A DNA stretch of 47,928 nucleotides from an uncultured Candidatus Saccharibacteria bacterium (GTDB lineage Bacteria > Patescibacteriota > Saccharimonadia > Saccharimonadales > Saccharimonadaceae), in NCBI GenBank assembly GCA_947425085.1, contig CANDYV010000003.1, forward strand, positions 1 through 47,928, read 5' to 3'. The notes beneath the pieces were generated by a model that was given only the letters and a program-made list of their open reading frames with translations, ran no database searches and was not told the origin of the DNA. Positions within the stretch are counted from its first letter, which is position 1. The number at the start of each line of letters is the position of its first letter. Made by a program: the position numbers and the translations under genes. Below are positions 46,747 through 47,928 of the stretch, piece after piece.

Positions 46747-47429
46747 GTTGGTTTTTGTCGGGGGAGTGTTGTGGGTTTAGGTGTTTTCTTTTGATTCGGT
46801 TCTATGGATTGGTTTTGGTATGGTTCGGTTTGGCAATAAAAAGGCATTTTCTGAGGTAATTTTGCGGATTTTCTGGATTTTGGTCCGGATTTTTTGTGCA
46901 AAAATACTCGTGAAAATGCTTGACTATCATTCCCTTTTCAACAAAATACCATAGACATTTTGACGCCAAAATGGTATAGAATAGCATAATTTTGCTTTGA
47001 TTTGAACGAAAATGATGTTTGTGTTTGCCTTCCGAACCACTATGTCCACTCATAAGTAATTCGTTACTTCCATTATAGCGTGAGGGGAATGGGATGTCAA
47101 TAGATTTGGTGCGAATTTTTCGCGCCAAAATTACAGGGGTGGAGGCGGATTTCGTGGATTTTGACAGGGAAGGAGAGTACGAGATATTTTGTGGGTTTTT
47201 CGTGGGATTTGCGAATTTTGGAGGATTGGCTGGAGGGGCAGGGAACGAGAGTTTTTGGAGTATCGTGGATACAATAGGGGTGAGGTGTGGGTTTTGTGCG
47301 CGCCGTTGTAATTTGGAAATGCGGACGAAATTAGAAAAGGAGTGCGGCGGGATTATTGGGGTGGGTTTTGAGCAGGGGTTGTTTTGAGGGTGTGATACTT
47401 GGGCAAGATTATTGGCAAAAAGTCAAGTC

Positions 47430-47458
47430 TAGGCAAAAGCGGGAATGGTTGGTATACT
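47430..47458 (+). promoter_or_regulatory. Promoter TAGGCA-17-TATACT upstream of structured leader
   Basis: -10 TATACT 47453-47458; -35-like 47430-47435. Confidence 0.55.
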
Positions 47459-47461
47459 TGA

Positions 47462-47591
47462 GGTGTTAAACGAATCAAATATTATAAAATGCGGAGCTGT
47501 TTTTGCAGTTTATCATTGGAAGGTGATAACGGCACCGTAAGGTGGACTAGCTTTCGAGTGATAAACTCTGCAGTTTGGTTCGTTTAACACC
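47462..47591 (+). ncRNA. Candidate structured leader RNA/cis-regulatory element closed by an 18-bp helix
   Basis: 47462-47479 GGTGTTAAACGAATCAAA pairs with 47574-47591 TTTGGTTCGTTTAACACC (one G-U); inner GUUUAUCA/UGAUAAAC and CACC-GUAA-GGUG hairpins. Confidence 0.6.
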
Positions 47592-47664
47592 CTTGCGGTG
47601 TCGTTTTTGTTTTAGGATATACGGCCTGTTTGGGTGTTAAACATAACCTAAAAGGAGGGCTGTG

Positions 47665-47928
47665 ATGCGAAGCCGGAATAGAAAAGTTAAGAAACAGGGG
47701 GCGAGGCTAGGCTCGGTGGGGAATTACGCGGAGAGGGTGAGTTGCGGAAGATGCGTTGGCTATGGAAGTTGTGCGGGGCTGTTATTGCTGGCGTTTTTGT
47801 TAATGAACCCGGTGGCGGGGAATGAGGCGCAGGCGCTGGAGGAGGGGGATTATGATGATCAGATTGTGGCTACGGCTGATTCTGGCGTCACAATTTCCTT
47901 CACACCCTCTTCCGGCTCAGCTTCGCTC
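47665..47928 (+). CDS. Secreted/surface protein, N-terminal fragment truncated by window end
   Basis: AAAGGAGGG SD then MRSRNRKVKKQGARLG..GLLLLAFLLMNPVAGNEAQALEEG signal peptide-like; open to the last base. Confidence 0.75.
   Translation, partial: MRSRNRKVKKQGARLGSVGNYAERVSCGRCVGYGSCAGLLLLAFLLMNPVAGNEAQALEEGDYDDQIVATADSGVTISFTPSSGSASL

Follow-up and report, generated by a model that had tools for sequence, protein, structure and literature searches.

The leader and its gene

The window, that is, the whole stretch of 47,928 nucleotides analysed here, is an entire contig of the 717-kb, 45-contig genome of an uncultured Candidatus Saccharibacteria bacterium, and it stops within the secreted-protein gene that lies behind the leader described below. 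This gene is preceded by a promoter (match 9/12, with TG preceding the -10 box) and by a series of complementary strands (Table 1); the 235-nt leader folds with -85.9 kcal/mol as compared to -57.3 ± 4.5 kcal/mol for shuffled sequences (z -6.3), none of 200 shuffles being equally stable. An earlier note on this DNA had described a switch-like leader of the riboswitch or attenuator type without recognizing the class, and all leader segments it named are present, at positions right within one base. A1 closes an 18-bp helix with B, designated P1, and the segment GTTTAACACCC (47582-47592) is complementary over 11 bp to A2, both located as described. Two further pairings put forward there are incidental, being conserved in neither case: the CACC-GUAA-GGUG hairpin with its GNRA loop, for which most copies lack the GGUG, and the alternative partners of GUUUAUCA (47508, in the P3 stem). 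The sequences GTTAAAC/GTTTAAC led to an integron attC site being considered, which was dropped as other copies do not retain them. Upstream in the window, the minus strand of 46802-47100 has an 83-aa ORF and, facing it, a perfect TTGACA-N17-TATAAT promoter (47100-47072); no match to the ORF was found in 19 relatives.

Table 1. Parts of the leader and their positions in the window
Feature	Position	Strand	Description and basis
Promoter	47430-47458	+	-35 TAGGCA 47430-47435, 17-nt spacer, TGG-extended -10 TATACT 47453-47458
A1	47462-47479	+	GGTGTTAAACGAATCAAA; 5′ strand of P1, begins at predicted transcription start; fold and covariation
P1b (inner), 5′ strand	47490-47496	+	partner 47566-47572; minimum-energy fold
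P2	47497-47508	+	hairpin CTGT-TTTT-GCAG; minimum-energy fold
P3	47509-47565	+	hairpin with L1 in apical loop; fold, loop position of L1 in relatives
L1	47528-47542	+	AACGGCACCGTAAGG; loop strand of pseudoknot, pairs with T; 107 loci, covariation, compensatory variants
B	47574-47591	+	3′ strand of P1, with an end that A2 and the terminator-like hairpin use as well
T	47591-47605	+	CCTTGCGGTGTCGTT; 3′ tail, partners L1 (pseudoknot), B end (hairpin) or L2
Terminator-like hairpin	47587-47601	+	ACACC-CTTGC-GGTGT, then U-run TTTTTGTTTT (47604-47613); conserved in relatives
L2	47620-47626	+	TACGGCC; partial complement of T (state 2)
A2	47632-47642	+	GGGTGTTAAAC; 11 bp with B end 47582-47592; own-versus-swapped partner test
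Shine-Dalgarno (SD)	47651-47659	+	AAAGGAGGG; sequence, AACCTAAAAGGAGGGC conserved in sister copies
Secreted-protein gene	47665-47928	+	start ATG 47665, GTG 47662 possible; cut by contig end

A conserved core of one helix and one pseudoknot

The conservation of the paired segments in relatives, on which the earlier note had made its proposal depend, held when tested by covariation. P1 forms at practically every one of 107 loci, among which the A1 octamer takes 67 different forms and a single position may show as many as six pair types; as this set was filtered on P1, its pairing percentage is inflated, the pair-type variety and the model-based counts given below being less affected. A TATAAT-like box lies shortly upstream of A1 in most relatives, and the -10 box ends 6 nt before A1 in 57 of the 107 loci (the remaining spacings mostly resemble overlapping TA...T matches), which places the beginning of P1 at the predicted transcription start; a start downstream of 47591, the other possibility raised, is not what the prediction gives.

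The most conserved part of the leader, as judged by comparison of the relatives, is one that had been overlooked: a pseudoknot between L1 (GGCACCGYAAGG in the family core) and the tail T (consensus CCUUGCGGUGYCRUU). Of 118 elements, 115 have L1 in the apical loop of the inner hairpin, and in none of the 118 do shuffled interiors fold equally well. In relatives found by a covariance model, P1 and L1:T are jointly 97.1% paired, as compared to 80.3% for shuffled and 27–54% for slid partners; both sides have changed at 14 of 20 pairs, comprising all eight of P1 and six of the 12 of the pseudoknot, and the covariation score for P1 and L1:T is 0.427 versus 0.146. Part of L1 and T was fixed by the search pattern, so the informative positions are the free ones and those of the model-found relatives. 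There, compensatory variants pair GGGCATCGCG with CGCGGTGTCC and CGGCACCACGC with GCGTGGTGTCG; in some relatives the pairing is shifted to other letters or is one pair longer. The helix comprises 12–15 bp at about -25 kcal/mol (median -24.7). Conserved, beginning at the promoter and located 5′ of genes on the same strand, within their leaders, the element is on this comparative evidence a structured cis-regulatory leader.

Competing partners of B and T

T also pairs with the end of B, forming a G+C-rich hairpin of 4–6 bp which is followed by a U-run and is conserved in relatives. Its energy there is -7.5 to -8 kcal/mol (median -7.5), that of shuffled sequences -1.7 kcal/mol; a single informative pair, b-2:T7, covaries (87 of 107 loci versus 71 expected). 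In the window alone the terminator-like hairpin noted earlier is at the level of chance (one found, 0.9 expected), and it is the relatives which lend it support. The evidence is weaker than that for P1 and L1:T: what speaks for the hairpin is its conservation, an energy below that of its shuffles and one pair which clearly covaries. A hairpin with a U-run competing with an alternative helix, the feature of transcription attenuators, would thereby be present as far as sequence, energy and this one pair can tell. The comparison shows B and T to have conserved potential pairings that exclude one another.

Further downstream, the approximately 100 nt past T hold a strand complementary to B and T in members of the genus (mean z -3.1; own-type loci -3.5), whereas in distant families this is not significant (-0.6). 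The competitor in most members of the genus is L2, a near-copy of L1 pairing with T; members of the window's group mainly have A2, located beside the SD and complementary to the B end plus ACCC. There the B:A2 pairing is locus-specific, as in 17 own-type loci the own partner pairs over 8.9 nt and swapped partners over 7.1 nt (permutation p<5e-5). Co-folding of B, T and the downstream stretch yields one long hairpin, B-T:L2-A2. The exchange between A1:B and B:A2 put forward in the earlier note is thus a real and conserved possibility, set atop an older core: since the downstream competitor is confined to the genus, it is, from its distribution, clade-specific, and the ancestral core would consist of P1, the pseudoknot and the terminator-like hairpin.

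Distribution

BLAST with the leader and a pattern search gave at least ten copies in the window's own genome, which share a TATAAT-type box, the A1 strand, the loop GGYRCCGYA, the B strand and the tail TGCGGYGYCRUUUU, each then leading into a same-strand gene or the contig end; further copies before secreted-protein genes, which the earlier note had suggested looking for, were among them. The L1...T pattern matched 19 of 392 sampled genomes of the order, the reversed-pattern control none; two related genomes (G209 and G344) contain 28 copies each. Among 382 genomes sampled from the phylum four matched, all in the class Saccharimonadia. Fifteen sequences, none of them from the own genome, were used to build a covariance model (sequence plus eight P1 pairs), which independently recovered the element of the window (47463-47609, 39.5 bits, E 3e-6) and matched 70 of 393 sampled genomes of the class.

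In a pattern scan of named genomes, almost all of the matches listed were from Candidatus Saccharibacteria, and the P1 requirement left at least 126 elements, from which L105 and L159 were later removed as chance matches. Matches in Siccirubricoccus, Desulfococcus, Asaia and other non-Saccharibacterial genomes are attributed to chance, as they are devoid of P1 and about eight were expected by a hand estimate. Two more, L094 and L124, lie in metagenome-assembled genomes labelled Lachnospiraceae and Oscillospiraceae; these contigs are probably mis-binned Saccharibacterial DNA. A phage origin was rejected, there being just two pattern matches on viral contigs, both without P1; viral relatives of the protein stretch downstream of the leader were not found. 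Taken together, the matches point to a structured RNA family that is so far restricted to Saccharibacteria (class Saccharimonadia).

In accordance with the earlier failure to recognize the class, no Rfam 15 family reached its gathering threshold for the window (best 18 bits, a chance level) or for 15 relatives; within leader loci only tRNA and RNase P were matched, outside the leader. Leaders L054, L059, L184 and L200 have tRNA genes or the gene for RNase P RNA in their vicinity, and these places are possibly insertion hot spots. Literature searches retrieved no description of this leader RNA.

Target genes and private stems

The genes behind the leaders encode, by sequence features, mainly secreted and membrane proteins: an N-terminal hydrophobic segment was found in 86% of 87 leader genes (≥70 aa) versus 28% of 460 other ORFs of the same loci, figures from a rough hydropathy test, with numerous paralogues among the leader genes. 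Those of the own genome are related secreted proteins, the longer paralogues of which match Fib_succ_major weakly. An exception is the DNA methyltransferase behind L073, and the frames at L027 and L097 resemble, as judged by eye, type III restriction-modification Mod proteins. At L010 (G013:C4, ~57.5 kb) a mid-protein frame of the Fib_succ_major type begins within about 60 nt of the leader; neither a start codon nor an SD was seen for it, which gives the impression that the leader was either inserted into a decayed gene or left standing ahead of one.

Within single genomes (the own genome, CAMVCW, CAMKRV, JAFOJO, CAMVDR and CANAUU) nearly all P1 sequences differ: an A1 pairs with its own B in 11.9–12 of 12 positions and with those of other copies in 7–9 on average, and paralogues at least 90% identical past T still have near-random 5′ domains. 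Conversely, at L040, L041, L042 and L117, in four related genomes, a module of about 155 bp that spans from the -10 box to past the U-run is 93–98% identical, with flanks at the random baseline, and precedes unrelated genes; promoter and leader together look like a portable regulatory cassette. Selection for orthogonality, downstream gene conversion or mobility of the leader could have caused these private and identical leaders. It is conceivable, and is offered as a tentative idea only, that a riboswitch-like class sets the surface-protein repertoire of Saccharibacteria and that the private code of P1 (and A2) prevents cross-pairing among dozens of leaders.

How the leader may act

The explanation we lean towards is that Saccharibacteria possess a new class of 5′ leader RNA, acting in cis as an attenuator-type switch. 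The nascent RNA can fold P1 around the inner domain, and L1 can pair with T; alternatively, T and the end of B can form the short hairpin which, with the U-run, may act as an intrinsic terminator. P1 and the pseudoknot, by occupying both arms of this terminator, would serve as the antiterminator, and the choice of fold would fall to some signal, be it a metabolite, an ion, a protein or an RNA, that acts upon the P1-P3/L1 domain. In the genus, the B-T:L2-A2 hairpin may, after read-through, undo P1 and the pseudoknot and set a structure beside the SD, adding a translational or mRNA-stability layer. Several points speak against this scheme. Of only 4–6 bp, the terminator stem is much weaker than the pseudoknot (-7.5 versus -24.7 kcal/mol, medians), the predicted accessibility of the SD is nearly equal in the two states (mean 0.39 versus 0.49), and the distant families appear to have no downstream competitor.

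A purely translational switch, with no real termination at the U-run and the exchange of P1 and pseudoknot for B-T:L2-A2 altering ribosome access or mRNA stability, is unlikely, if to be reckoned with. The position of L2/A2 close to the SD and their covariation with B and T in the genus fit it, and state 2 is predicted to free the SD in several own-type loci (L059, from 0.18 to 0.72; L063, from 0.32 to 0.61); yet the mean shifts little, L061 and L161 move the opposite way, and the distant families retain P1, pseudoknot, hairpin and U-run without a significant downstream competitor. Somewhat less likely still is a reverse polarity. As the helix L1:T runs into the U-run and includes its first U residues, it could act as the terminator instead of the antiterminator, read-through then depending on L1 being hidden by the inner fold or by some bound factor; 12–15 bp at about -25 kcal/mol, an A-rich 5′ flank whose A residues face the first U residues, and an end at the U-run would suit such a role, which on the other hand leaves the conserved hairpin of B end and T and its covarying pair without one and, once P1 and P3 have formed, demands that the helix close as a pseudoknot.

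Very little probability is assigned to a protein or RNase III acting on the long P1, with the leader controlling mRNA stability or yielding a stable small RNA: P1 is indeed very stable (18 bp here), the potential terminated RNA is compact and nothing indicates a particular metabolite, but what has been found conserved to date is confined to the pairing strands and a handful of loop residues. Most improbable of all is that the element is no regulatory RNA but a mobile repeat of the DNA that has palindromic ends, like a MITE or REP. The multiple copies, the 18-bp inverted repeat and the near-identical module between random-level flanks recall such an element. A MITE, though, carries inverted repeats at its ends and takes any gene orientation, whereas this module outruns its repeat on the way from the -10 box to past the U-run and stands in sense orientation before a gene, the sense ORF exceeding the antisense one in length at 76 of 79 loci. 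Moreover, the repeat sequences vary between copies with compensatory pairs, and the covariation of L1:T requires single-strand folding. The proposal of a switch-like leader, of riboswitch or attenuator type, from which the analysis set out survived all tests run on sequence and predicted structure.

Relation to known systems

Saccharibacteria are very small, and living on other bacteria is common among them. In the literature and the Rfam release searched, no structured cis-regulatory RNA was found described for them; the present family, which strong covariation defines, occurs widely across the class and precedes the genes most likely to touch the host bacterium or the gut surface, and thus appears to be a new on/off control of the Saccharibacterial cell surface. 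Homologues in a cultured Saccharibacterium would open the control of surface genes to direct testing; genetics have been published for TM7x (Nanosynbacter lyticus) (PMC12206443).

With attenuation leaders and orphan riboswitches (Rfam Cis-reg) the leader shares a structured 5′ region extending from the promoter, mutually exclusive helices, a terminator-like hairpin with U-run and the distribution over many genes; it differs in matching no Rfam family, be it in the window or in the 15 relatives, and in the inverted copy of both switching strands that precedes the SD in the genus. The SAM-II and preQ1-II riboswitches likewise have a hairpin loop base-paired to the 3′ tail close to the expression platform; unlike theirs, the leader's pseudoknot has 12–15 bp, lies within a P1-P2-P3 domain and overlaps the terminator-like hairpin, and there is no covariance-model similarity. 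T-box leaders are multicopy and exchange terminator for antiterminator, as is proposed for the Saccharibacterial leader, likewise multicopy; the latter has no match to the Rfam T-box, and its targets are mostly secreted and membrane proteins.
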